A stretch of DNA of 64,000 nt from Devosia epidermidihirudinis (GTDB lineage: Bacteria; Pseudomonadota; Alphaproteobacteria; Rhizobiales; Devosiaceae): positions 56,443 through 120,442 of the forward strand of contig NZ_LANJ01000002.1 of NCBI RefSeq assembly GCF_000971295.1. Direction: 5' to 3'. Made by a program: the position numbers and the translations under genes. A model generated the notes under the pieces. The model did no database searches. It had not been told where the DNA came from and saw only the letters and a program-made list of their open reading frames with translations. Positions 1 through 42,402 of the stretch are shown in pieces. Position 1 is the first letter of the stretch, and every line of letters starts with the position of its first letter.

Positions 1-145
1 CGACGATCGCGAAGATCAGGTACATGATGCCGATGTCTTTGTGGTTGGTCGAATAGACCCAACGACGCCAACCCTTCGGCGTGTGATCATCATGGGCAGC
101 ATCGTGGCCAGTAGCGTGGGCCTCGAGGTGAGCGGTGTTTGCCAT
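1..145 (-). CDS. coxA: Cytochrome c oxidase subunit I, 5' fragment (left-arm copy, truncated by window edge)
   Basis: These are the first 48 codons of coxA, identical to the start of the complete gene on the right arm. The fragment covers the His-rich cytoplasmic N-terminus and the beginning of the first membrane helix. The gene runs off the window, so it cannot be told whether the copy continues or the contig ends here. Because it is part of the perfect inverted duplication it may not exist as a second copy in the cell. Confidence 0.85.
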
Positions 146-166
146 TATTATGTCCCCTGACCCGTC

Positions 167-1090
167 TTACTTAATCGCAACCAGCGTGGCGTTGGCAGCG
201 TCATAGTCGCCCGCCTTGAACGCCGCGATGAACGCTGCATATTCAGCCTTGGTGACCACGCGCACGGCGATGGGCATGAAGGCATGGTCCTTGCCGCAAA
301 GCTCAGAGCACTGACCGTAATAAACGCCGGTTTCGCGCGCATTGAACCAGGTCTCATTGAGACGGCCGGGCACGGCGTCGATCTTGATGCCGAAGGACGG
401 CACTGCAAAGGCGTGGATCACACCCATTGGATCGGCAGTGACCTGAACGCGAACAGTGGTGTCGACTGGAACAACCAGCTCATTGTCCACTGCAAGCAGG
501 CGCGGCTGGCCAGGCTTGGTCGCATTGCGATCGGTTTCATTCAGCATCAGCTGCGTGAAAGCCAGATCGTCATCGACGTATTCATAGTCCCAGTACCACT
601 GCTGACCGGTTGCCTTGATGGTCAACTCGGGCGCAGGCACCTCGATCTCACCGAACGAGAAGATGTTGGCGCCAAGATATTTGCGCTCGCCATCTGGCGT
701 CGTCAGCTGATCGCTCAGCACGCCGAAAGACGGCACCGAGATCACGATCAGCGCGATGATTGGCAACACGGTCCAGACGATTTCAACCAGCGTATTGTGG
801 GTGAAACCTGCCGGCACCGGATTGGCCTTGGCATTATAACGAATAACAACCCAGATCAGCAGCGCCAGAACCAGGATGACGATGAGCGAAATGCTCCACA
901 TCAAAATCCCGTCGTGGAACGCCGTGATCGAATCCATAATAGGCGTCACTGAACGCTGCAGATGGAACTGGCCAGGGAGCGGATGACCAGCTGCGTAGCC
1001 GCCCTCTTCCTGCGCCGTGGCAAGAACTGGGGCCAGCGCCATTGCGGCTGCCGAAATCGCCCCCATCTTCCTCAAGAACTGCCCGGTCAC
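167..1090 (-). CDS. coxB: Cytochrome c oxidase subunit II (left-arm duplicate)
   Basis: This is an exact mirror copy of the right-arm coxB, with the same GTG start, signal peptide, two membrane helices and CuA-binding CSELC segment. It precedes the truncated coxA copy with the same 21-nt gap. The copy is probably an artefact of the fold-back; see the right-arm entry for the functional description. Confidence 0.85.
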   Translation of the reverse strand: MTGQFLRKMGAISAAAMALAPVLATAQEEGGYAAGHPLPGQFHLQRSVTPIMDSITAFHDGILMWSISLIVILVLALLIWVVIRYNAKANPVPAGFTHNTLVEIVWTVLPIIALIVISVPSFGVLSDQLTTPDGERKYLGANIFSFGEIEVPAPELTIKATGQQWYWDYEYVDDDLAFTQLMLNETDRNATKPGQPRLLAVDNELVVPVDTTVRVQVTADPMGVIHAFAVPSFGIKIDAVPGRLNETWFNARETGVYYGQCSELCGKDHAFMPIAVRVVTKAEYAAFIAAFKAGDYDAANATLVAIK

Positions 1091-1199
1091 CTCAAACCCC
1101 CGTATCGAATTCCATTGGTGCATCCACACCGGATTGAGGGCGAAATAAGCGGCATAGCTAACGCCGCCCCGACTCAACCTCGGAGCGAAAAACTCTGGC

Positions 1200-1213
1200 T
1201 TGACCTAAATCAC
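1200..1213. promoter_or_regulatory. FNR/FixK-like box (left-arm copy)
   Basis: The sequence TTGACCTAAATCAC fits the FNR/FixK half-site pattern TTGA-N6-TCAA except for the last base. It lies in the 329-bp divergent gap between coxB and the ialB-like gene. It is the mirror of the site on the right arm. Confidence 0.35.
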
Positions 1214-1419
1214 ATTGAATTGGCCGAGTCTATTGCGGCATTGGCGCGCGCATCTGCGTCATATTGAACCCTTTAGGCCACCTTGCCGCCTCACCCTCGC
1301 CGCAGTTTCACACCCATATTCCCAGCATTTCCGGGCTTTGGTTGACTTGGACACAAGCCTGTCGGAAACAGAGAACTGCCCACGCGGCCGCGCGATTCGT
1401 CTGGAGAAGTGATAGAGTG

Positions 1420-1929
1420 ATGTCGATTTTCAAGCGCTACCTGACCGGTGCGAGCCTGGCTCTCGTCGCCCTCGCCTCTACCAGCCACGTCACTTTTGCC
1501 CAGGGCACAGTGCGCGCGCAGTATGGCGACTGGCAGATGAGCTGCGATACGCCTCCCGGCGCCAGCGCAGAGCAGTGCGCCATCATTCAGAATGTGATGG
1601 CTGAAGATCAGCCCAATGTGGGCCTCTCTGTCATCGTATTGCGCACGGCCGATCGCGAAGCGCGCCTGCTGCGCGTACTGGCACCCCTTGGCGTGCTGCT
1701 GCCAAACGGCCTTGGCCTCAATGTTGATGGCAAGGATATGGGCCGCGTCGCCTTCGTGCGCTGCCTGCCCAATGGCTGCGTCGCCGAAGTGGTCCTCGAT
1801 GACGCACTGATCCAGACGCTGTCCGATGGCACAGACGCGGTTTTCGTCGTCTTCAAGACACCTGAAGAGGGCATCGGCATTCCCGTATCGCTCAAGGGCT
1901 TCAAGGACGGCTTCGCGCAGCTGCCCTAA
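1420..1929 (+). CDS. Invasion-associated locus B (IalB)-like exported protein (left-arm duplicate)
   Basis: This is an exact mirror copy of the right-arm gene: 169 residues with a signal peptide and the IalB pattern YGDWQMSC...C. The ATG is preceded by GGAGAAG about 11 nt upstream, which favours it over an in-frame upstream ATG 52 codons earlier. See the right-arm entry. Confidence 0.8.
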   Translation: MSIFKRYLTGASLALVALASTSHVTFAQGTVRAQYGDWQMSCDTPPGASAEQCAIIQNVMAEDQPNVGLSVIVLRTADREARLLRVLAPLGVLLPNGLGLNVDGKDMGRVAFVRCLPNGCVAEVVLDDALIQTLSDGTDAVFVVFKTPEEGIGIPVSLKGFKDGFAQLP

Positions 1930-1947
1930 TCCTCAGAGGGGGGAATT

Positions 1948-2193
1948 ATGGAAGAGGAAAAGCGCGCTGCGCCGCGTCACCGTACGCTCAAGGGCGCGCG
2001 CATTGCCTTTCACGATGGCTTTTCAACCATCGAATGCACAGTCCGCAACATGTCGGACATCGGCGCCATGCTCAAAGTGGCAAGCGTGATCGGGATTCCC
2101 GATCACTTCGATCTCGTGTTGAGTGATGGGCAGAAGTTCACCTGCACTGTCGCCCGCCGCACCGCCACCGAAGTGGGCGTGACGTTCGACTAG
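1948..2193 (+). CDS. PilZ-domain protein (left-arm duplicate)
   Basis: This is an exact mirror copy of the right-arm PilZ gene, 81 residues, starting 18 nt after the ialB-like stop behind a GAGGGGGGA ribosome-binding site. The two genes are probably cotranscribed. Confidence 0.8.
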   Translation: MEEEKRAAPRHRTLKGARIAFHDGFSTIECTVRNMSDIGAMLKVASVIGIPDHFDLVLSDGQKFTCTVARRTATEVGVTFD

Positions 2194-2217
2194 GCCACCG
2201 GGCCACTCCCCAGACAG

Positions 2218-2249
2218 AAAAAAGCCGGACAAGCACGAAGCTGTCCGGC
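2218..2249 (-). terminator. Rho-independent terminator of the DUF1127 gene (left-arm copy)
   Basis: An 8-bp stem (GCCGGACA / TGTCCGGC) is followed on the minus strand by a run of T. It lies about 120 nt downstream of the DUF1127 stop codon and mirrors the right-arm copy. Confidence 0.8.
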
Positions 2250-2372
2250 AAGTCATCAGGAAACGGGACCAGCGGCAAAACCGGCCCGAAGATGGCACGA
2301 GCACTCAATTGGGGGGTCGTACCAACACGGTGGCAGCGGCGCCTTTGGGCGTCGGTGCAAAGACAATCGCAG

Positions 2373-2633
2373 TCAGCGGCGGGCGTTCCGCGCCCGGGCA
2401 GCGTTCAGGACATGCGCGCCGGCCCCACCCTTATGGGCCAGGGCAGCGGTGACGTCCGAGCGCGAAATACCCAAATCCTCAAACTGCTCGCGATCGAAGT
2501 CCAACAGGCCTTTCAGTGCCGCGCGGCGGGTACGTGCAGCTTGTGCCTTTGCGATCCAGCGCAGAATTGCGACAAAAGGATTGGCAGGCGAGGCAGCCGC
2601 GACTGTCCGCTCGCTGGGCAGCGAGAGAGCCAT
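2373..2633 (-). CDS. DUF1127 (YjiS-like) small protein (left-arm duplicate)
   Basis: This is an exact mirror copy of the right-arm DUF1127 gene, 86 residues. GGAGA five bases upstream fixes the ATG. It is transcribed divergently from the lysR gene. Confidence 0.8.
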   Translation of the reverse strand: MALSLPSERTVAAASPANPFVAILRWIAKAQAARTRRAALKGLLDFDREQFEDLGISRSDVTAALAHKGGAGAHVLNAARARNARR

Positions 2634-2741
2634 GATAGTCTCCAAAAATGTGGTTGTGCCGAGGGAGTCGGCGGGGTTCGGTACAAACTGACTGCACCGA
2701 TAGTCCTGATTACCGCACTGGACTTCCATTCGTCTAACAAA

Positions 2742-2754
2742 TAGATTTCATCTA
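2742..2754. promoter_or_regulatory. LysR-type T-N11-A dyad (left-arm copy)
   Basis: TAGAT-TTC-ATCTA is a perfect interrupted dyad with the T-N11-A form of LysR-family operators. It sits in the divergent gap, 30 bp before the lysR start codon. Confidence 0.5.
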
Positions 2755-2784
2755 CTCTATCAATTTGAGTGATGGGAATGGACT

Positions 2785-3675
2785 ATGGCCGCTCCACTTG
2801 ATCTCGACCAGTTGCAAAGCTTCTGCGCTATTGCCGACTGCGGCAGCTTCACCGAAGCCGCGCGGCGTGTGAACAAGACCCAGTCCGCCGTCTCCATGCA
2901 GATCAAGCGGCTTGAAGAGCGCCTTGGTCACTCGCTACTTGCGCGCGACGGCCGCACCGTCACCCTGACCCGGCAAGGCGAGGCGCTCTATTCCCGCGCC
3001 CGCAAAATGCTGCGCACCAATGCCGAAATCCTCGACCACTTTTCCGATGGCGACCTCTCGGGCTCGATCCGCTTTGGCGTGCCGGACGATTATGCAGTTC
3101 GCCTCCTGCCCGTGATCCTGTCGAGCTTCCAGCGTACTCACCCCAAGATTGCCGTGGATGTTTCCTGCATGGCGTCCGAGCATCTGCTCGAGGGCATGCG
3201 CGCTGGGCGCTATGATCTGATCGTCTTCACGCAGGGCACCGAGCAAAACTACGGCGAGCTGTTCCGCACCGAAAAGATGTTCTGGGTGGCCAGTCATGGC
3301 GGCCGCGCACTGGCCAGCGAACCCCTCGCCATCGCTTCGGGCCCGAACTATTGCATCTGGCGCAAGGACGCGATGGAAGCCCTCGACCGCAGCGGCATGG
3401 ACTATCGCATCGCCTATACATCCTCCAACGCCACCGCCATTTCCAGCGCCGTGCTGTCTGACCTGGCCATTGGCTTCCTGCCGGAAAGCGCCATGCAGCC
3501 CGGCATGCGCGTGGTCAACGAAGAGTATGGTCTGCCGCGCCTCGGCGACGCCCAGATCGCCCTCAAACGCGCCAGCCACGCCTATGGCGGCATTTACGAC
3601 GCGCTAGCGAACCACATCGTCCAGTCGATGGGCAACCTGGACCATCCGCCAGTCACAGCCGAAGCGGCGGAGTAG
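2785..3675 (+). CDS. LysR-family transcriptional regulator (left-arm duplicate)
   Basis: This is an exact mirror copy of the right-arm regulator, 296 residues. Its stop codon lies about 100 bp from the axis of the duplication, so this is the last gene before the turn-around. Confidence 0.85.
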   Translation: MAAPLDLDQLQSFCAIADCGSFTEAARRVNKTQSAVSMQIKRLEERLGHSLLARDGRTVTLTRQGEALYSRARKMLRTNAEILDHFSDGDLSGSIRFGVPDDYAVRLLPVILSSFQRTHPKIAVDVSCMASEHLLEGMRAGRYDLIVFTQGTEQNYGELFRTEKMFWVASHGGRALASEPLAIASGPNYCIWRKDAMEALDRSGMDYRIAYTSSNATAISSAVLSDLAIGFLPESAMQPGMRVVNEEYGLPRLGDAQIALKRASHAYGGIYDALANHIVQSMGNLDHPPVTAEAAE

Positions 3676-3696
3676 AGGGTTCCTCCCCACTGGGTC

Positions 3697-3716
3697 ATTC
3701 CGGCGAAGGCCGGAAT
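3697..3716. repeat. REP-like hairpin, left of the axis
   Basis: ATTCCGGC-GAAG-GCCGGAAT is an 8-bp stem with a GAAG loop, the kind of extragenic palindrome often seen between genes in Hyphomicrobiales. Its mirror copy is at 3843-3862. Together with the half-hairpin at the axis it seems to be one arm of a natural two-stem REP unit. Confidence 0.6.
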
Positions 3717-3763
3717 CCATGTCCGCAACGCGCCCCCGCATCCACATTAATGGACAACCCACA

Positions 3764-3795
3764 GCATGGATCCCGGCCTAGGCCGGGATCCATGC
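3764..3795. repeat. Palindromic axis of the inverted duplication
   Basis: The stem CATGGATCCCGGCCT meets its own complement at the central CCTAGG. In an ordinary REP unit this arm would continue as a short loop and an imperfect complement. The strand switch therefore falls in the loop of a natural hairpin, which is where a snap-back of a nascent strand would prime itself. Confidence 0.7.
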
Positions 3796-3883
3796 TGTGG
3801 GTTGTCCATTAATGTGGATGCGGGGGCGCGTTGCGGACATGGATTCCGGCCTTCGCCGGAATGACCCAGTGGGGAGGAACCCT

Positions 3884-4774
3884 CTACTCCGCCGCTTCGG
3901 CTGTGACTGGCGGATGGTCCAGGTTGCCCATCGACTGGACGATGTGGTTCGCTAGCGCGTCGTAAATGCCGCCATAGGCGTGGCTGGCGCGTTTGAGGGC
4001 GATCTGGGCGTCGCCGAGGCGCGGCAGACCATACTCTTCGTTGACCACGCGCATGCCGGGCTGCATGGCGCTTTCCGGCAGGAAGCCAATGGCCAGGTCA
4101 GACAGCACGGCGCTGGAAATGGCGGTGGCGTTGGAGGATGTATAGGCGATGCGATAGTCCATGCCGCTGCGGTCGAGGGCTTCCATCGCGTCCTTGCGCC
4201 AGATGCAATAGTTCGGGCCCGAAGCGATGGCGAGGGGTTCGCTGGCCAGTGCGCGGCCGCCATGACTGGCCACCCAGAACATCTTTTCGGTGCGGAACAG
4301 CTCGCCGTAGTTTTGCTCGGTGCCCTGCGTGAAGACGATCAGATCATAGCGCCCAGCGCGCATGCCCTCGAGCAGATGCTCGGACGCCATGCAGGAAACA
4401 TCCACGGCAATCTTGGGGTGAGTACGCTGGAAGCTCGACAGGATCACGGGCAGGAGGCGAACTGCATAATCGTCCGGCACGCCAAAGCGGATCGAGCCCG
4501 AGAGGTCGCCATCGGAAAAGTGGTCGAGGATTTCGGCATTGGTGCGCAGCATTTTGCGGGCGCGGGAATAGAGCGCCTCGCCTTGCCGGGTCAGGGTGAC
4601 GGTGCGGCCGTCGCGCGCAAGTAGCGAGTGACCAAGGCGCTCTTCAAGCCGCTTGATCTGCATGGAGACGGCGGACTGGGTCTTGTTCACACGCCGCGCG
4701 GCTTCGGTGAAGCTGCCGCAGTCGGCAATAGCGCAGAAGCTTTGCAACTGGTCGAGATCAAGTGGAGCGGCCAT
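3884..4774 (-). CDS. LysR-family transcriptional regulator
   Basis: The 296-residue protein has the full family length. An N-terminal winged helix-turn-helix (about residues 6-66, with the FTEAARRVNKTQSAVS helix pair) is followed by a linker helix and a periplasmic-binding-like effector domain (about 90-290). The effector is unknown. It is divergent from a DUF1127 gene across a 151-bp gap that carries a perfect T-N11-A dyad, so control of itself and of that neighbour is the simple inference. The protein looks intact. Some LrhA/PecT-like regulators have a similar layout, but I cannot place it in a subgroup. Confidence 0.9.
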   Translation of the reverse strand: MAAPLDLDQLQSFCAIADCGSFTEAARRVNKTQSAVSMQIKRLEERLGHSLLARDGRTVTLTRQGEALYSRARKMLRTNAEILDHFSDGDLSGSIRFGVPDDYAVRLLPVILSSFQRTHPKIAVDVSCMASEHLLEGMRAGRYDLIVFTQGTEQNYGELFRTEKMFWVASHGGRALASEPLAIASGPNYCIWRKDAMEALDRSGMDYRIAYTSSNATAISSAVLSDLAIGFLPESAMQPGMRVVNEEYGLPRLGDAQIALKRASHAYGGIYDALANHIVQSMGNLDHPPVTAEAAE

Positions 4775-4804
4775 AGTCCATTCCCATCACTCAAATTGAT
4801 AGAG

Positions 4805-4817
4805 TAGATGAAATCTA
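4805..4817. promoter_or_regulatory. LysR-type T-N11-A operator dyad
   Basis: TAGAT-TTC-ATCTA is a perfect 5-bp inverted repeat with a 3-bp centre and the T-N11-A signature of LysR-family sites. It lies 30 bp before the lysR start and about 108 bp before the DUF1127 start, in their shared promoter region. Confidence 0.5.
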
Positions 4818-4925
4818 TTTGTTAGACGAATGGAAGTCCAGTGCGGTAATCAGGACTATCGGTGCAGTCAGTTTGTACCGAACCCCGCCGACTCCCTCGG
4901 CACAACCACATTTTTGGAGACTATC

Positions 4926-5186
4926 ATGGCTCTCTCGCTGCCCAGCGAGCGGACAGTCGCGGCTGCCTCGCCTGCCAATCCTTTTGTCGCAATTCTGCGC
5001 TGGATCGCAAAGGCACAAGCTGCACGTACCCGCCGCGCGGCACTGAAAGGCCTGTTGGACTTCGATCGCGAGCAGTTTGAGGATTTGGGTATTTCGCGCT
5101 CGGACGTCACCGCTGCCCTGGCCCATAAGGGTGGGGCCGGCGCGCATGTCCTGAACGCTGCCCGGGCGCGGAACGCCCGCCGCTGA
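4926..5186 (+). CDS. DUF1127 (YjiS-like) small protein
   Basis: This is a small basic protein of 86 residues. The DUF1127 core is at about residues 28-70: a helix rich in Arg and Ala, then LLDFDREQFEDLGISRSDV, the typical 'L-x-D-x-x-L-x-D-I-G-I-x-R' end of the family. Related proteins in alphaproteobacteria are small RNA-binding-like or stress-linked factors; the exact role here is unknown. GGAGA five bases before the ATG sets the start, so a longer in-frame reading from 4830 is unlikely. It is divergent from lysR and is followed by a strong terminator. Confidence 0.8.
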   Translation: MALSLPSERTVAAASPANPFVAILRWIAKAQAARTRRAALKGLLDFDREQFEDLGISRSDVTAALAHKGGAGAHVLNAARARNARR

Positions 5187-5309
5187 CTGCGATTGTCTTT
5201 GCACCGACGCCCAAAGGCGCCGCTGCCACCGTGTTGGTACGACCCCCCAATTGAGTGCTCGTGCCATCTTCGGGCCGGTTTTGCCGCTGGTCCCGTTTCC
5301 TGATGACTT

Positions 5310-5341
5310 GCCGGACAGCTTCGTGCTTGTCCGGCTTTTTT
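5310..5341 (+). terminator. Rho-independent terminator after DUF1127 gene
   Basis: The stem GCCGGACA / TGTCCGGC with a 10-nt loop is followed directly by six T. It ends the DUF1127 transcript and lies between two convergent genes. Confidence 0.85.
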
Positions 5342-5365
5342 CTGTCTGGGGAGTGGCCCGGTGGC

Positions 5366-5611
5366 CTAGTCGAACGTCACGCCCACTTCGGTGGCGGTGC
5401 GGCGGGCGACAGTGCAGGTGAACTTCTGCCCATCACTCAACACGAGATCGAAGTGATCGGGAATCCCGATCACGCTTGCCACTTTGAGCATGGCGCCGAT
5501 GTCCGACATGTTGCGGACTGTGCATTCGATGGTTGAAAAGCCATCGTGAAAGGCAATGCGCGCGCCCTTGAGCGTACGGTGACGCGGCGCAGCGCGCTTT
5601 TCCTCTTCCAT
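5366..5611 (-). CDS. PilZ-domain protein
   Basis: The 81-residue protein is essentially one PilZ domain. It shows the N-terminal Arg-rich c-di-GMP motif (RHRTLKGAR, near residue 10) and the second motif NMSDIGA, close to the D/N-x-S-x-x-G consensus. By family it would bind cyclic di-GMP. It has no signal peptide or extra domain, so it is a stand-alone adaptor. It follows the ialB-like gene by 18 nt in the same direction. Confidence 0.82.
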   Translation of the reverse strand: MEEEKRAAPRHRTLKGARIAFHDGFSTIECTVRNMSDIGAMLKVASVIGIPDHFDLVLSDGQKFTCTVARRTATEVGVTFD

Positions 5612-5629
5612 AATTCCCCCCTCTGAGGA

Positions 5630-6139
5630 TTAGGGCAGCTGCGCGAAGCCGTCCTTGAAGCCCTTGAGCGATACGGGAATGCCGATGCCCTCTTCAGGTG
5701 TCTTGAAGACGACGAAAACCGCGTCTGTGCCATCGGACAGCGTCTGGATCAGTGCGTCATCGAGGACCACTTCGGCGACGCAGCCATTGGGCAGGCAGCG
5801 CACGAAGGCGACGCGGCCCATATCCTTGCCATCAACATTGAGGCCAAGGCCGTTTGGCAGCAGCACGCCAAGGGGTGCCAGTACGCGCAGCAGGCGCGCT
5901 TCGCGATCGGCCGTGCGCAATACGATGACAGAGAGGCCCACATTGGGCTGATCTTCAGCCATCACATTCTGAATGATGGCGCACTGCTCTGCGCTGGCGC
6001 CGGGAGGCGTATCGCAGCTCATCTGCCAGTCGCCATACTGCGCGCGCACTGTGCCCTGGGCAAAAGTGACGTGGCTGGTAGAGGCGAGGGCGACGAGAGC
6101 CAGGCTCGCACCGGTCAGGTAGCGCTTGAAAATCGACAT
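5630..6139 (-). CDS. Invasion-associated locus B (IalB)-like exported protein
   Basis: The 169-residue protein has a cleavable signal peptide (about residues 1-28) and then an IalB-type domain. This begins YGDWQMSCDT, has a second Cys in EQCAI, later Cys in RCLPNGC, and ends with the family's SLKGFKDGFAQL. In Bartonella, IalB takes part in red-cell invasion; in free-living relatives it is a periplasmic or outer-membrane protein of unknown role. GGAGAAG supports the chosen ATG. The PilZ gene follows and coxB is divergent. Confidence 0.82.
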   Translation of the reverse strand: MSIFKRYLTGASLALVALASTSHVTFAQGTVRAQYGDWQMSCDTPPGASAEQCAIIQNVMAEDQPNVGLSVIVLRTADREARLLRVLAPLGVLLPNGLGLNVDGKDMGRVAFVRCLPNGCVAEVVLDDALIQTLSDGTDAVFVVFKTPEEGIGIPVSLKGFKDGFAQLP

Positions 6140-6345
6140 CACTCTATCACTTCTCCAGACGAATCGCGCGGCCGCGTGGGCAGTTCTCTGTTTCCGACAG
6201 GCTTGTGTCCAAGTCAACCAAAGCCCGGAAATGCTGGGAATATGGGTGTGAAACTGCGGCGAGGGTGAGGCGGCAAGGTGGCCTAAAGGGTTCAATATGA
6301 CGCAGATGCGCGCGCCAATGCCGCAATAGACTCGGCCAATTCAAT

Positions 6346-6359
6346 GTGATTTAGGTCAA
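6346..6359. promoter_or_regulatory. FNR/FixK-like box upstream of coxB
   Basis: Read on the minus strand, TTGACCTAAATCAC matches the FNR/FixK pattern TTGA-N6-TCAA with one mismatch at the last base. It is about 110 bp before the coxB start, in the gap shared with the ialB-like gene. Oxygen-responsive control of aa3 oxidase genes is known in related bacteria; here the site is inferred from the motif only. Confidence 0.4.
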
Positions 6360-6468
6360 GCCAGAGTTTTTCGCTCCGAGGTTGAGTCGGGGCGGCGTTA
6401 GCTATGCCGCTTATTTCGCCCTCAATCCGGTGTGGATGCACCAATGGAATTCGATACGGGGGTTTGAG

Positions 6469-7392
6469 GTGACCGGGCAGTTCTTGAGGAAGATGGGGGC
6501 GATTTCGGCAGCCGCAATGGCGCTGGCCCCAGTTCTTGCCACGGCGCAGGAAGAGGGCGGCTACGCAGCTGGTCATCCGCTCCCTGGCCAGTTCCATCTG
6601 CAGCGTTCAGTGACGCCTATTATGGATTCGATCACGGCGTTCCACGACGGGATTTTGATGTGGAGCATTTCGCTCATCGTCATCCTGGTTCTGGCGCTGC
6701 TGATCTGGGTTGTTATTCGTTATAATGCCAAGGCCAATCCGGTGCCGGCAGGTTTCACCCACAATACGCTGGTTGAAATCGTCTGGACCGTGTTGCCAAT
6801 CATCGCGCTGATCGTGATCTCGGTGCCGTCTTTCGGCGTGCTGAGCGATCAGCTGACGACGCCAGATGGCGAGCGCAAATATCTTGGCGCCAACATCTTC
6901 TCGTTCGGTGAGATCGAGGTGCCTGCGCCCGAGTTGACCATCAAGGCAACCGGTCAGCAGTGGTACTGGGACTATGAATACGTCGATGACGATCTGGCTT
7001 TCACGCAGCTGATGCTGAATGAAACCGATCGCAATGCGACCAAGCCTGGCCAGCCGCGCCTGCTTGCAGTGGACAATGAGCTGGTTGTTCCAGTCGACAC
7101 CACTGTTCGCGTTCAGGTCACTGCCGATCCAATGGGTGTGATCCACGCCTTTGCAGTGCCGTCCTTCGGCATCAAGATCGACGCCGTGCCCGGCCGTCTC
7201 AATGAGACCTGGTTCAATGCGCGCGAAACCGGCGTTTATTACGGTCAGTGCTCTGAGCTTTGCGGCAAGGACCATGCCTTCATGCCCATCGCCGTGCGCG
7301 TGGTCACCAAGGCTGAATATGCAGCGTTCATCGCGGCGTTCAAGGCGGGCGACTATGACGCTGCCAACGCCACGCTGGTTGCGATTAAGTAA
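6469..7392 (+). CDS. coxB: Cytochrome c oxidase subunit II
   Basis: This subunit of the aa3-type terminal oxidase takes electrons from cytochrome c through the binuclear CuA centre. The 307-residue product has a signal peptide ending near LATAQ, two membrane helices, then a periplasmic cupredoxin domain. The CuA ligands are visible in the HAFAVPSFGIK region and in GQCSELCGKDHAFMP. The GTG start is chosen because it begins exactly at the signal peptide. A longer reading from a TTG at 6382 would add 29 residues with no export logic. It opens the cox operon, 21 nt before coxA. Confidence 0.92.
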   Translation: MTGQFLRKMGAISAAAMALAPVLATAQEEGGYAAGHPLPGQFHLQRSVTPIMDSITAFHDGILMWSISLIVILVLALLIWVVIRYNAKANPVPAGFTHNTLVEIVWTVLPIIALIVISVPSFGVLSDQLTTPDGERKYLGANIFSFGEIEVPAPELTIKATGQQWYWDYEYVDDDLAFTQLMLNETDRNATKPGQPRLLAVDNELVVPVDTTVRVQVTADPMGVIHAFAVPSFGIKIDAVPGRLNETWFNARETGVYYGQCSELCGKDHAFMPIAVRVVTKAEYAAFIAAFKAGDYDAANATLVAIK

Positions 7393-7413
7393 GACGGGTC
7401 AGGGGACATAATA

Positions 7414-9108
7414 ATGGCAAACACCGCTCACCTCGAGGCCCACGCTACTGGCCACGATGCTGCCCATGATGATCACACGCCGAAGGGTTGGCGTCGTTGG
7501 GTCTATTCGACCAACCACAAAGACATCGGCATCATGTACCTGATCTTCGCGATCGTCGCGGGGATCGTCGGTGGCCTTCTCTCCGGCGTTATGCGCATGG
7601 AGCTGCAGGAGCCCGGCATTCAGATTTTCCACGGCCTTGCAGCCATGGTCTATGGTGTGGATGGCGACGCAGCCCTCGACGCCGGCAAGCACATGTACAA
7701 CGTGTTCACCACGGCGCACGCGCTGATCATGGTGTTCTTCGTGGTCATGCCAGCCACCATGGGTGGTTTTGCAAACTACTTCGCGCCCCTGATGATCGGT
7801 GCGCCCGATACCGCGTTCCCGCGTATCAACAACATCGCCTTCTGGCTGCTCCCTCCAGCATTCATCCTGCTGCTGATGAGCCTGTTCTTTGAAGGTACCG
7901 GCCCTGGCGCGCTCGGCTTCGGCGGCGGCTGGACGATCTACCCACCACTGTCCACCTCCGGCCACCCTGGCCCGGCAATGGACTTCGCGATCCTGTCCCT
8001 GCACGTTGCCGGTATCAGCTCGATCCTTGGTGCGATCAACCTGATCACCACCATCTTCAACATGCGCGCTCCGGGCATGACGCTGCACAAGATGCCGCTG
8101 TTCGCCTGGTCGGTTCTGGTGACTGCATTCCTGCTGCTGCTGGCTCTGCCAGTGCTGGCTGGTGCCATCACCATGCTGCTGACGGACCGTAACTTCGGTA
8201 CTGCCTTCTTCAAGCCTGCCGAAGGTGGCGACCCGATCCTGTTCCAGCACCTGTTCTGGTTCTTCGGTCACCCCGAAGTGTACATCATGATCCTGCCGGG
8301 CTTCGGCATCATCAGCCACATCGTGTCGACCTTCAGCCGCAAGCCAATTTTTGGCTACATGGCAATGGCTTACGCCATGGTCGCCATCGGCTTCGTCGGG
8401 TTCGTCGTGTGGGCTCACCACATGTACACCACCGGCCTCAGCCTCGACGTGCAGCGTTACTTCGTGGCCGCCACGATGGTTATCGCGGTGCCGACCGGCG
8501 TGAAGATCTTCTCGTGGATCGCCACCATGTGGGGCGGCTCCATCACCTTCCGCACGCCAATGCTGTGGGCAATCGGCTTCATCTTCCTGTTCACCGTTGG
8601 TGGTGTGACCGGTGTGGTGCTCGCCAATGCTGGTGCCGACCGTGCCCTGCACGACACCTACTACGTGGTTGCTCACTTCCACTACGTGCTGTCGCTGGGT
8701 GCCGTGTTCTCGATCTTCGCTGGCTGGTACTACTGGTACCCCAAGATGTTCGGTTACATGTACTCGGAGTTCCTGGGTAAGCTGCACTTCTGGGTCATGT
8801 TCGTTGGCGTGAACCTGATTTTCTTCCCGCAGCACTTCCTCGGCCTTGCCGGTATGCCGCGCCGCTACATCGATTACCCAGATGCGTTTACCCTGTTCAA
8901 CCGCATCTCCTCCTACGGCTACTACATCACCTTCTTCGCGATGCTGATCTTCTTCTACGCGACGTGGGAAGCCAGCCGTAAGAAGCGTCCAGCGGGCGAC
9001 AGCCCATGGGGCGAGGGTGCAACGACACTGGAATGGACCCTGTCCAGCCCACCACCGTTCCACCAGTTCTCGACCCTGCCACGTATCGAGTCGACAAACG
9101 CGCACTAA
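7414..9108 (+). CDS. coxA: Cytochrome c oxidase subunit I
   Basis: This is the catalytic core of the aa3 oxidase. It binds heme a and the heme a3-CuB centre, where oxygen is reduced and protons pumped. At 564 residues it has the usual length, with about twelve membrane helices. Visible motifs include [20 protein letters not shown] (heme a His), [17 protein letters not shown] (CuB His with the Glu of the D-channel and the cross-linked Tyr), the adjacent His pair in AHHMYTTG, and VAHFHYVLS (heme ligands). An AGGGGA ribosome-binding site precedes the ATG. It is complete only on the right arm of the duplication. Confidence 0.97.
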
Positions 9109-28711: not shown

Positions 28712-28893
28712 GTGCCCCCTCTGTCCTCATCACCTGAGAGATTTCCCGGCTGAGCGCCGGTTGCTCCTTCGGTGGGACCTGGCGCTGTGCCGGTCCGCTT
28801 TCCAGAGTTGTATCGGTACTGCGGTCCTTTTGCCTGAGAGTTTCCGGGGCGGTTGCTCCTTCGGCGCTGGAGAAAATCCAATCTCTCCCGCAG
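28712..28893 (-). promoter_or_regulatory. Tandem glycine riboswitch
   Basis: On the minus strand two aptamers follow each other. Each has the P1/P3 hallmarks GGAGAG or its partner CTCTCAGG and the core CCGAAGGAGCAA, preceded by GCG in the first and CA in the second. The first runs from about 28893 to 28805, the second to about 28712, and the gcvT start lies about 60 nt further on. Glycine binding should turn on the cleavage operon, as in other tandem glycine switches. Confidence 0.93.
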
Positions 28894-28965
28894 TGAGGGC
28901 ACCATGGTGGAGAATCCAAGGGGCGTCAATCGGGGGGAGGGCGGTTTTGCAACGCCGGTCGTGAC

Positions 28966-38302: not shown

Positions 38303-38372
38303 AAGGGCTGCCATGACCGAGTTTTCGTCCTACATTTCTTCCTAACGCAGGACCGAAGATCGAGGCGAGCAA

Positions 38373-38783
38373 TTGTCGACACCACGGAATGAGCGCTTTT
38401 CTCGGATATGGCTCGCGGCCAACACGGGAAATGCTCCCAAAGTGCGCCGTCGATCCGGGAACAGGCCACACCAATTGTTGCTGGATCTCAGTCACACCAA
38501 ACCCGAAAGGGCTGTGGAGCTGGTTCTGGTGATTGCTGAACGAACGGATGACCAGAGCGCGCTCAGCTACTTGGGGGGCGGGCCTTTGGTCAATGTTCTG
38601 TGGAGCGATGCGGCGTCTATAGCGCTAAAACAGATACATGCTGCGCCCAAGACCTTTGGTAAAACCTCGGTCGTGCGAGAGGCTCTGTCCTACGCGCATA
38701 CACCTGAGATTGATCGAGGGCTTCGCGCAGCGCTCGATCCTTCGGATCGACCGGTATTTGGACACAAACAAAAAGGCCGCTGA
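38373..38783 (+). CDS. Uncharacterised small protein (possible DUF6869-type)
   Basis: The 136-residue protein has a central part, VELVLVIAERTDDQSALSYLGGGPLVNVL, that resembles small DUF6869-type proteins (helical, 'xxGPLxxLL'). I am not certain of the family. It starts at a TTG with GAGG about seven bases upstream. It is 70 bp after mutY and borders a gene-poor region. Nothing indicates a membrane or secreted location. Confidence 0.5.
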   Translation: MSTPRNERFSRIWLAANTGNAPKVRRRSGNRPHQLLLDLSHTKPERAVELVLVIAERTDDQSALSYLGGGPLVNVLWSDAASIALKQIHAAPKTFGKTSVVREALSYAHTPEIDRGLRAALDPSDRPVFGHKQKGR

Positions 38784-38982
38784 GCGCTTCCTCCGTTTCA
38801 TTGTCGACGAAGTTATCCAGCATCATAGAGCTGCCGCAGGCGCGGCAATCTGAACAGTATAGAAGGGGGTGGGAAGCCGACGGTCAGTTTTTGGACGGCT
38901 GCTCTGGGAAACTATCATTCGCTGGGCGAACAAGCTTCGATGGCAACCGTCCCCACTTATGTCGTTTTATTCCCTCTCCGGA

Positions 38983-39675
38983 TTACAGCGGCCTGACACT
39001 TGTCCCACTGGGCCTCACGGCAATCCAAATGGTGTGACGGTCGCCCTTGCCGTTGCTGCGGGCGCGAACGGTCACTTCCTCGATCGCCATTCCGGTTTGC
39101 CTCAAGCGCTTGGTAAATCTGGCATCGGAGTAAGAGGACCAAACGGCCAGGTGGCCGCCCGTCGTCAGTGCCGACCTGGCGGCAGCAAGGCCAGCGGCAT
39201 TGTACAGCCGGTCATTGGCGGGACGAAACAGTCCGTCGGGACTATTGTCTACATCAAGCAGGATAGCATCGAATAGCTTGCCGCCGCCGATGGCGGTAGC
39301 GACGTCACCCTGGTGAATGCGAACACGAGGATCGTCGAGGCTGGTGCCATGCAAAACGGCAAGCGGACCACGCGCCCAGGCGACCACCTCGGGAACCAAC
39401 TCGGCCACCACGATTTCGCTGTCGGCGGCAAAGCACTGAAGGGCAGCACGCAAGGTAAACCCCATGCCAAGGCCGCCGATTAGAATTCGGGCTTTTGGGC
39501 GAGCGCCTACCCGGGAGGCCGACAGCGCGGCCAATTGCTCTTCTGAATGGTTCTGCCGGTTGTTCATCAGGGTGACAACGCCGGACATAATGGAGAATTC
39601 GCTGCCGCGTTGCATCAGTGTCATGACGCCACCACCCGGCATGGTGGTTTCACCGAGTTTTACCCATGGTAGCAT
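38983..39675 (-). CDS. Spermidine-synthase-like SAM-dependent methyltransferase
   Basis: The 230-residue protein has a Rossmann fold with the glycine loop ILIGGLGMGFTLRAAL, the acidic strand end VAELVPEVV, DPRVRIHQGDV and the LLDVDN segment, as in spermidine synthases and related methyltransferases. It lacks a clear polyamine N-terminal domain, so the product is not certain. GGAGA before this ATG is better placed than for the longer reading. Confidence 0.85.
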   Translation of the reverse strand: MLPWVKLGETTMPGGGVMTLMQRGSEFSIMSGVVTLMNNRQNHSEEQLAALSASRVGARPKARILIGGLGMGFTLRAALQCFAADSEIVVAELVPEVVAWARGPLAVLHGTSLDDPRVRIHQGDVATAIGGGKLFDAILLDVDNSPDGLFRPANDRLYNAAGLAAARSALTTGGHLAVWSSYSDARFTKRLRQTGMAIEEVTVRARSNGKGDRHTIWIAVRPSGTSVRPL

Positions 39676-39927
39676 CAATATCTCCAGTCTGGTCCAGCGA
39701 ATCGCCACTGCTGCACCGCGCTATGCTCTAGCGTAGGTCATAGGACACTCCCCACAAACGTCGGCTTTTGGCTCCGGCTGTTGCTGAGTTCAACGGCCGG
39801 AATGGGGTCGACTGCCGACCGGCAACATCGGGGTGGTTTGCTGCCTGACGGCTTCTGGCCGGCGAAGCTGTGGTAGCGGCCGTTTAGGTAGCCGCCGCAC
39901 TTCGACGGCAACGCACCTCACTTCCGA

Positions 39928-41616
39928 CTAATAGCCCCCGTAATCGTCGCCGGGGAGTTCCCATTCGTCGGGAAAATCCTGGGCGTCTATTTCTTCCATT
40001 TTCCAGCTCCGAAGCGCTGCCATGTGGCGCACGAAGGCATCCGATGGCTTCTTAGGCTTGCTGCGTCGAACATTCTTGAGACGCCGCTCCTTATCGTAAA
40101 ACGACACGTTCCGCCGTCGGAGTTCGGCAAAATAGAGGTGGTTTTGAACGAAGCCAGCAGTGGGAGGCGTCAACCAGCCTTTCAGGTCCGCTTCGTAGGC
40201 TACGAGCCACAGATTGGACTCAAGCCCTTTTGTCGTCATCGCTTGGGTCCACAGCGACACATCAATCGCCCCGTCAATGAGGCCCATCTGGCGCAGGTCG
40301 AGCAAGACCAAAGCGCAAGCCGAGCTCTCCAATTTCGTCACTGGCTGCACCCAATCCGCTGGAAGGGTGATCCTCAGCATCTTAGCTAGGAACAAGGCCC
40401 ACGAGATTTCGTAGTGAGCGGCCGATGGCCCACACTTCGCGATGGTATCTTTAATGAATTTTGCAATCCGGTCCTTTTTAACCGGAAAGCCCTTTGCATT
40501 GTATAGTGCCAAAAGGTGCACCACCATCGGTACGGTGGTCGCGTTCGCCCGAGCCGCTTTCAATAAGTAAGTCTCGAACTGAGGCCAGTTCACCCTTAGA
40601 ATATCGACGCTTCGGAGAAGGTTGACGGCGAAGCGAAGGACATTCGACCGTTTATATTCGGCGGCGAAGTGGAAAGCTTGAGCGAAATAGTGGTCGATGG
40701 TCTTGGATTGCTCGGAAAACTCAGAGGAAATGGGGCTCTGGCGTAGTGCGGTCGGCCAAACAGCCTGTATCTCGGTGGCCGAGTTCACTACCTTTGTCTT
40801 CTCAGGATGTATCTCCAACTCGTAATCACGGGCAGCCGCTGCGAGCACGGCTATCGCCTCTTCGGCCTGCCCAGCATTGTCGAAGCCGATGTACCAATCG
40901 TCCACGTTCCGAACGATACTTTCGGCCGCTAAGTTCAACTCCGCTTGCACTCTGGCATCAATGGACACTGCTACAATTTCCGCGATTATGCGGGATGTGT
41001 CGGGCCCGACGGGAATGCCGATAGTCTGGTTGTCCTGCCCCTTGCGAACAGCCTTATCCAAACGAGCTCCCAGTGAGGGGTCATAAACAGCGGCGTTGTT
41101 CAAGTTAGTCTTGGCCCATGCCTTGGTATGCAATCCCCACGGAATGGCATGAGTATAGAGTGTGCCGTAAAATCGAGAAATATCCGCGACGAGCGCATGA
41201 TTGTGGATCGCCGAGATTTCAGAGTGCCTCAAGGAGACAAGTCGGAAGTCTGGCGTCGAGACGGCCCTATCTCGGTCGAATTTAATCTCAACCTCTTCGA
41301 CGCCAAAAGTACACGAAGTAAGGTGCTTATGAATTTGTTGCCAATCATCGGCAATGAGCTTCGCCACATGGTACTGCGCGATCGGATTGACGATCGCTAA
41401 TTCCCGTCGCCAATCAGTTACCTTTGGGATGCTAAATCGCTCCGGATTTGTCCTCGGATACTGCGGATAATTTGGGAGTGCTGCCCATGCATCACCAATG
41501 GCACGGCGGTACTTTGCGAAATCTGCAGTCGTGAATGCCGGCGGCAACTCTTCTGGGAAGTACCCGGCCGCCAATAGCGCTTTCAGTCTTTCGCTTTTGG
41601 ACATTACTTCCCCCAT
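39928..41616 (-). CDS. Stand-alone reverse transcriptase, UG/Abi (DRT)-like, candidate phage defence
   Basis: The 562-residue protein carries a reverse transcriptase domain in about residues 130-290. It has motif A ADISRFYGTLYTH with Asp145, the GIPVGPDTS motif (200-208), the catalytic VDD in RNVDDWYIGF (Asp239, Asp240) and HPEKTKVV (270-277). The second half is a string of helices, like the helical repeats of defence-associated UG/Abi reverse transcriptases. No group II intron maturase or endonuclease domain and no retron msr-like unit is obvious. The bases look less GC-rich than in neighbouring genes. The exact subtype cannot be told by eye. Confidence 0.85.
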   Translation of the reverse strand: MGEVMSKSERLKALLAAGYFPEELPPAFTTADFAKYRRAIGDAWAALPNYPQYPRTNPERFSIPKVTDWRRELAIVNPIAQYHVAKLIADDWQQIHKHLTSCTFGVEEVEIKFDRDRAVSTPDFRLVSLRHSEISAIHNHALVADISRFYGTLYTHAIPWGLHTKAWAKTNLNNAAVYDPSLGARLDKAVRKGQDNQTIGIPVGPDTSRIIAEIVAVSIDARVQAELNLAAESIVRNVDDWYIGFDNAGQAEEAIAVLAAAARDYELEIHPEKTKVVNSATEIQAVWPTALRQSPISSEFSEQSKTIDHYFAQAFHFAAEYKRSNVLRFAVNLLRSVDILRVNWPQFETYLLKAARANATTVPMVVHLLALYNAKGFPVKKDRIAKFIKDTIAKCGPSAAHYEISWALFLAKMLRITLPADWVQPVTKLESSACALVLLDLRQMGLIDGAIDVSLWTQAMTTKGLESNLWLVAYEADLKGWLTPPTAGFVQNHLYFAELRRRNVSFYDKERRLKNVRRSKPKKPSDAFVRHMAALRSWKMEEIDAQDFPDEWELPGDDYGGY

Positions 41617-41659
41617 CAGCTTGGTCCGAAGGAAGGAATTACATAGCGGGGATTTGCTA

Positions 41660-41899
41660 TCAACGACTTATCGTAATGACGTTATGGCGGGTCGCAGGCG
41701 ATGTGTGCCAATCGCCGCATGGGAATCCGCTGATAGGAGTGAACTGCGAGAGGCCGCGTTCGTCGATGTGAATCCAAACCCGGACAGTCTCGCTCCGGCC
41801 CAGCTTAAGCCGGTGCTGAATGAACGGCAGGTTTCGGGTGCTCCGCATCTTATCGTCAAGGACTGACTTGGGGTCGAAAACAGACAGCCTGTAGGTCAT
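41660..41899 (-). CDS. Possible 79-residue protein upstream of the reverse transcriptase
   Basis: The frame ends 43 bp before the reverse transcriptase start and runs the same way. The translation (with QHRLKLGRSETVRVWIHIDE in the middle) looks protein-like rather than random, but there is only a weak GGTGA before the ATG and I do not recognise a family. It may be a gene remnant. Confidence 0.25.
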   Translation of the reverse strand: MTYRLSVFDPKSVLDDKMRSTRNLPFIQHRLKLGRSETVRVWIHIDERGLSQFTPISGFPCGDWHTSPATRHNVITISR

Positions 41900-42238
41900 T
41901 CATTCACCGCGCCGAGGTGCCCTCCCACCGGCTCTCACCCTCGGGTCGGCTTGAGGGTGACCAATGCGGTTCGGACAGCTCGGCTCCCCAGAATTCAAAA
42001 TAGTTATCCCCGGCCGCAAGACCTTGCCCATACTTGCGCTCATCCCCGCCAATCACGCGGTGCTGACGAGGCATTGGGCGGGGGGACTGGAAGCTGGGGT
42101 CGCCCGGCACCGGCGTGGATGCTGACCACCGGCCCGCCGGGGCGTCTGCAGCAGGGCCAATCGACTGGTCTCGACTGCAAGCCGCTTCGGAACCCCACAG
42201 GGGAAGCCGCTCGATGCGTGCGCTGGAAAAGCCAGATC

Positions 42239-42314
42239 GTGTGAAGCGGCTTTTGCCTCTTCAATAAACCAATCTGGGGGCGTCAAGCCCTCGGGGGCGA
42301 AAGCCGCTTCACAC
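42239..42314. ncRNA. Long stem-loop, candidate structured RNA
   Basis: GTGTGAAGCGGCTTTTGCC (42239-42257) pairs with GGCGAAAGCCGCTTCACAC (42296-42314) over 19 bp with one G-U type mismatch, around a 38-nt loop. It lies upstream of the reverse transcriptase and before the ccrM terminator. No coding sense is seen. Strand and function are unknown. Confidence 0.4.
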
Positions 42315-42372
42315 CGTGTCACCGCAAGCCATCTGGCCGGGCGGCGCTTTTGCACGTCCGTGCCCCCAAAAC

Positions 42373-42402
42373 AAAAAGGCCGCCGGGGATGAACCGGCGG
42401 CC
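42373..42402 (-). terminator. Rho-independent terminator of ccrM
   Basis: GGCCGCCGG / CCGGCGGCC is a perfect 9-bp stem with a 7-nt loop, followed on the minus strand by TTTTTGTTTT. It is 36 nt after the ccrM stop. Confidence 0.92.

Follow-up and report, generated by a model that had tools for sequence, protein, structure and literature searches.

A 64,000-nucleotide stretch of the Devosia epidermidihirudinis genome (assembly GCF_000971295.1, contig NZ_LANJ01000002.1, positions 56,443 to 120,442; hereafter the window) carries a minus-strand open reading frame (ORF) at 39928–41616 for a reverse transcriptase (RT), which raises the questions of which family the enzyme belongs to, whether it works alone and how its DNA synthesis might begin. 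Our best explanation, to which we give a probability of about 0.72 as a whole, is that it is a single-gene anti-phage system of the DRT6 family of defence-associated reverse transcriptases (DRTs), likely a hexamer and predicted to synthesize DNA without a template upon infection. This explanation rests on the best family profile, a fold match over the full length of the chain, an intact catalytic triad, a signature of purifying selection, copies in other bacterial families that are almost identical but differently flanked, and the lack of a recurrent partner gene up to 4.5 kb away among the compared loci.

The ORF is open and intact over 562 codons. We take the ATG at 41604, the fifth codon, as the likely start, since M5 hardly varies in either alignment of the clade; this gives a frame of 558 amino acids at 39928–41604 (minus strand, as for all parts and flanks of the gene described below). 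The palm motifs ADISRFY (with D145), GIPVGPDTS, VDD (D239 and D240) and HPEKTK fall within residues 139–281 (40774–41202), and they are complete, as an earlier note on this DNA had stated; 29 aligned sequences, and all 57 DRT6-like rows of a wider alignment, keep the catalytic residues D145, D239 and D240 without exception. The Pfam RVT_1 model matched with 31.4 bits (gathering score 29.6), and with the Drt6 profile match given below this puts the RT well beyond a chance resemblance. The C-terminal half, read as helical in the same note, is mostly helical in AlphaFold2 models too: a domain of approximately residues 282–513 (40078–40773), which aligns to the solved DRT6 structure (PDB 9wy8) through residue 511, ends after an SFYD motif containing Y507. 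It is followed by a tail (residues 514–562; 39931–40077) that ends in DDYGGY, where Y559 and Y562 are candidate protein-priming tyrosines.

That the protein is a defence-type RT of the UG/Abi/DRT kind, as first proposed, was confirmed by profile and fold. The best profile was PADLOC Drt6 (563.5 bits, E 1.2e-169), matching residues 9–537 to profile positions 2–498 of 511, with a model named Drt4 next among PADLOC profiles at 487 bits. The predicted model matches the DRT6 hexamer 9wy8 in fold over the whole chain at 33–34% sequence identity. We conclude that the gene product is almost certainly a DRT6-type enzyme, sharing with DRT6 a near full-length sequence match, the predicted full-length fold, the catalytic triad, the single-gene arrangement and a C-terminal tail with a conserved tyrosine; the gene is a real but ordinary new member of an already known family. 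Two observations weigh against this assignment. Identity to 9wy8 is only 34%, and a tree (built after dropping 9 of 63 loci whose RT frame was shorter than 480 amino acids) gave no DRT6 clade separate from DRT4 and AbiK, with reference rows on very long branches, weak forks and weak placement. The solved DRT6 sits on a different branch of this tree from the window protein, and the tails differ as well: YGGY at the extreme C-terminus here, a DEEYFDS-like motif within an acidic tail in the 9wy8 clade.

The nearest alternatives among known enzymes are more distant. DRT4/UG15 (9vdo, 21ou) shares approximately 20% identity and has GPA where the window protein has GPD, and the NCBIfam Drt4 model scored 170.4 bits for the window protein, under its cut-off of 450. 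For AbiK (7r06, 7z0z) the profile reached only 122 bits, where Drt6 had 563. Weak matches to group II intron and retron RT models do exist (group_II_RT_mat 30.5 bits, retron_St85 15.7 bits), but they lie far under the curated cut-offs of 300 and 235, profile and fold ranking both point elsewhere and Rfam gave no match of this type, so that this origin, which the earlier note had also set aside, is vanishingly improbable. Kinship to retrons, DRT2 or DRT9 beyond the RT domain was not seen in the list of fold matches, where absence does not amount to exclusion.

We looked for a partner gene among 2212 ORFs of at least 70 amino acids within 4.5 kb of the RT in 67 loci including the window, some with short flanks. 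Six ORF groups recur in three to six loci, at varying distances and on varying strands; they include, under names that are partly our own reading, dehydrogenase-like genes in six loci, helicase-like genes in four and DNA methylase genes, the window's ccrM among them, in three. None made a convincing recurrent neighbour within this range. A 79-amino-acid ORF at 41660–41899 was rejected as a partner, as its frame is broken in the Nitratireductor locus L003 although the DNA is shared. In an Agrobacterium plasmid (L068, 111–5692), a DRT6-like RT directly follows AAA ATPase and helicase genes, perhaps as part of a larger defence island. The earlier description of the RT as lacking a known partner holds in part: no toxin was recognised beside it and it behaves as a single gene, but it is not an orphan, because DRT6 is listed as a single-gene system (PMC13213688).

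A different kind of partner, an RNA, had been suggested for the gap upstream. On this reading the flank would encode a non-coding RNA that serves as template for one defined product, like those of DRT2, DRT3a, DRT9 and DRT10, and we compared the three relatives close enough for this purpose. The upstream flank at 41617–41879, which may hold the promoter, is shared over 263 bp with L003; the last ~73 bp are conserved in L004 as well, with a short core in L005. It is here that the idea loses ground: homology to L004 ends at ~73 bp, which is short compared with the RNAs of other DRTs, the shared flank folds no better than shuffled sequence (z 0.17) and the upper gap only slightly better (z −1.42). 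The upper gap is moreover a dispersed repeat matched in at least 48 of 75 genus genomes, only one of which, its own, holds a close RT copy. At gathering scores Rfam returned only a distant glycine riboswitch, two sub-threshold microRNA matches being taken as chance. With DRT6 listed as single-gene in the same source (PMC13213688), and with neither a recurrent partner gene in the 67 loci nor a conserved upstream RNA on the three close relatives, an RNA-templated system is very unlikely, and the single-gene system that the earlier note offered as the other option is what these data favour.

Among 7996 candidates scored, 355 homologues had E ≤ 1e-10, 120 of which were listed, and a species-level genome collection yielded 63 loci when scanned with two peptide patterns typical of the clade to which the window protein belongs. 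Going by their titles, most of these loci are alphaproteobacterial, and the rest comprise a few from Bacteroidota and other Proteobacteria and one from a cyanobacterium. The nearest relatives belong to two different families: one, at 97%, is from Nitratireductor indicus, and the other, at 92%, from an uncultured Erythrobacter. Within the host genus only 1 of 75 genomes, its own, has a close copy; two more have a relative at 31–32% and four others weaker partial matches. Along with a GC content of 53.8% for the RT stretch against 60.9% for the window, this agrees with the accessory character first ascribed to the region. Phage and plasmid collections held no relative at 60% identity or above, and a pattern-based scan of IMG/VR found relatives on only two contigs, at 33–34%.

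Near-identical copies in other bacterial families have different flanks: the shared DNA spans 39830–41879 with L003 and 39928–41689 with L004. The downstream flank (39830–39927) is mostly shared with L003, and the window lacks some 60–70 bp there that L003 and L004 have in common. Near the L004 copy are genes for a phage-type integrase on the upstream side and for a resolvase-type recombinase on the downstream side. Ratios of non-synonymous to synonymous substitution (dN/dS) of 0.114 with L003 and 0.052 with L004 indicate strong purifying selection. Taken together, the patchy distribution, the relatives in other families, the limits of the shared DNA, the mobile-type neighbours and the purifying selection suggest that the gene was likely acquired horizontally. 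The same selection could be expected of a domesticated RT with a housekeeping or stress role, and the L003 copy does have a gene for an ABC-transporter ATPase on one side and one for an S1-domain protein on the other. Domestication is nevertheless highly improbable, given the patchy occurrence (of 75 genomes, one has a close copy), the almost identical copies found in other families, the integrase and recombinase genes near the L004 copy and the kinship to tested defence enzymes.

How might a DRT6 enzyme of this kind act? In the literature, DRT4 makes template-independent single-stranded DNA primed on a conserved tyrosine, and the phage protein ORF55, which protects the 3′ end of that DNA, also activates DRT6, whose product chemistry is described as less resolved and not yet fully characterized (PMC13213688, PMC13314766). 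For AbiK, Y44 is the priming residue and the working form is a hexamer (PMC9508834), and Class 1 DRTs are described as template-independent (PMC13174585). We assign a template-independent mechanism to the window protein because of its kinship to DRT4, AbiK and the Class 1 DRTs. The protein would likely form a hexamer and, once phage infection sets in, would synthesize DNA without a template; an ORF55-like phage DNA-binding protein would protect the product, whose accumulation would lead to cell arrest, or abortive infection. By analogy with these relatives, template-free, protein-primed synthesis has about three chances in four for this enzyme and abortive defence is probable, at slightly lower odds. 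To this scheme we add a step of our own, in which one or both of the C-terminal tail tyrosines Y559 and Y562 would prime synthesis.

We hold this last step tentatively, at somewhat less than even odds. Tail priming has precedents, as DRT3b primes on Y666 in a tail of residues 622–667 (PMC13174585) and DRT9 probably on Y496/Y498 of its tail, and both resemble the window protein in having a conserved tyrosine near the end of the tail. The last 21 residues (542–562) have a pLDDT confidence score below 50 in both AlphaFold2 models. In an alignment of the window protein with 42 homologues (A2), position 559 is tyrosine in 41 of 43 sequences and position 562 in 39, while 545–549 are variable. A tyrosine occurs in the last six residues of 40 of 55 DRT6-like rows, where shuffling of the tails predicts 12.8, and in 18 of 22 lineage representatives (45% core identity) against 5.2 expected; none of 5000 shuffles reached either count, and phenylalanine is not enriched in the same representatives (8/22 versus 6.6). 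This test left out the 9wy8 segment and the partial L039, and took one representative per cluster by rule (the window protein where it was a member, and in all other clusters the sequence whose name came last). When all members of each cluster were averaged over a wider set, leaving out homologues shorter than 520 (DRT6 set) or 560 (AbiK set) amino acids, tyrosine was present in 16.4 of 22 clusters against 5.4 expected. For comparison, a tyrosine in the last six residues occurs in 21 of the 263 ORFs of at least 350 amino acids in the neighbourhood, some of which are not real genes. In the 9wy8 clade, 114 of 115 sequences match a wider pattern, [DE]..Y[FS][DE] or EY[FS], within the last 75 residues, a first count of the motif having given tyrosine in 106, another residue in seven and none in two. 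DRT6 enzymes in general may, again at somewhat less than even odds, prime on a tyrosine of a mobile and otherwise fast-evolving C-terminal arm, Y559/Y562 here and DEEYFDS in the 9wy8 clade. The idea of a tail primer for DRT6 was not found in print, in literature searches that did not extend to the DRT6 structure paper. Sequences of the 9wy8 clade (P0121–P0240) have acidic tails, often ending in D/E plus F or W. Such ends resemble the acidic tips that single-stranded-DNA-binding proteins have.

A good deal weighs against the tail. Thirty-eight of 114 SFYD-anchored homologues (among the 120 listed) have no tyrosine in the last eight residues, where the other 76 do, and four of 55 rows (L007, L009, L026 and L049) have no tail tyrosine at all. 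In the solved clade the conserved tyrosine lies inside the tail, with only 13 of 115 sequences having one in the last six residues. With 60% clusters phenylalanine is enriched too (24.2 of 48 versus 16.2 expected, 0/400 shuffles), and among the 22 lineages so is aspartate (15 versus 9.9, 29/2000 shuffles). AbiK, run as a control, primes on Y44 and yet keeps a C-terminal tyrosine in 12.98 of 13 clusters. A primer need not even be a tyrosine, as DRT1 uses Ser402 (PMC13275509).

The alternative is the same DRT6 enzyme with its primer elsewhere, at finger-loop Y53 or Y50, Y474 or Y507, and with the C-terminal tyrosine serving assembly or product binding, and we regard it as close to an even bet. 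Y53 shows almost no variation in the two alignments of the window's own clade, and it sits in the loop from which AbiK (Y44) and Abi-P2 (Y61; PMC9508834) prime. Among representatives of the AbiK family (P0241–P0360), the C-terminal Y597 is kept in 13 of 14 and the priming Y44 in all 14. Y53 is, however, a feature of the window's clade: the DRT6-like set as a whole differs from AbiK in having no conserved tyrosine in the finger loop, with tyrosine at position 53 in only six of 57 rows and none in loops such as those of 9wy8 or L005. Y474 (55/57), Y154 (56/57) and Y507 (41/57) also remain candidates. Y154, however, lies in the palm and is common to AbiK, Abi-P2 and DRT4, and Y507, invariant in 29 of 29 aligned sequences, is replaced by F or L in 14 of the 57 rows. 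Y507 was accordingly dropped as a universal primer.

The DRT6 gene lies in a variable slot between ccrM and mutY (38303–42368, no strand assigned), delimited by comparison with congeners. A ccrM match was present in 73 genomes, and we compared the ccrM flank of 20 of these congeners; in the 17 of 20 with mutY within reach, the two genes are 14 to 4405 bp apart, against ~4.07 kb here. A defence hotspot at this site was not supported, as none of the 20 has DNA similar to the RT there; ORFs in the slot were not profiled and could include other defence genes. A 15-bp direct repeat (38766–38780 and 42369–42383) has one copy overlapping a terminator-like site after ccrM. Genus-wide matches mark 41996–42357 (minus strand) as a dispersed repeat, mosaic-looking and ~360 bp long with a 19-nt inverted repeat (42239–42314), which is not part of the RT system: the 752-bp gap was matched at E ≤ 0.001, often several times per genome, with few candidates scored in each and the matches listed all lying within these bounds. 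The genome has further partial copies of its own.

Among the other features, the gene adjoining the RT (38983–39708) is weakly spermidine synthase-like, far below cut-offs, with related genes in 68 of 75 genus genomes and a 56% paralogue in its own. The glycine riboswitch aptamer found with Rfam (28812–28900, minus strand) is distant from the RT, and ARAGORN found no tRNA. Window positions 1–7558 straddle the midpoint of the 120442-bp contig and make up a perfect inverted repeat around it. The contig also has two copies each of RT and ccrM, 100% identical and placed as mirror images. This arrangement is most likely an assembly artefact, and the RT is therefore probably single-copy.

The locus suggests that such a gene, in a unit of ~2 kb with no partner genes in sight, travels from one alphaproteobacterial family to another. 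DRT6 itself is one of the less resolved DRTs, and the conserved tail tyrosine offers a two-residue handle on how its DNA synthesis starts. If the tail is indeed the primer, a flexible ‘primer arm’ would be a design common to DRT6, DRT3b and DRT9 rather than peculiar to each.
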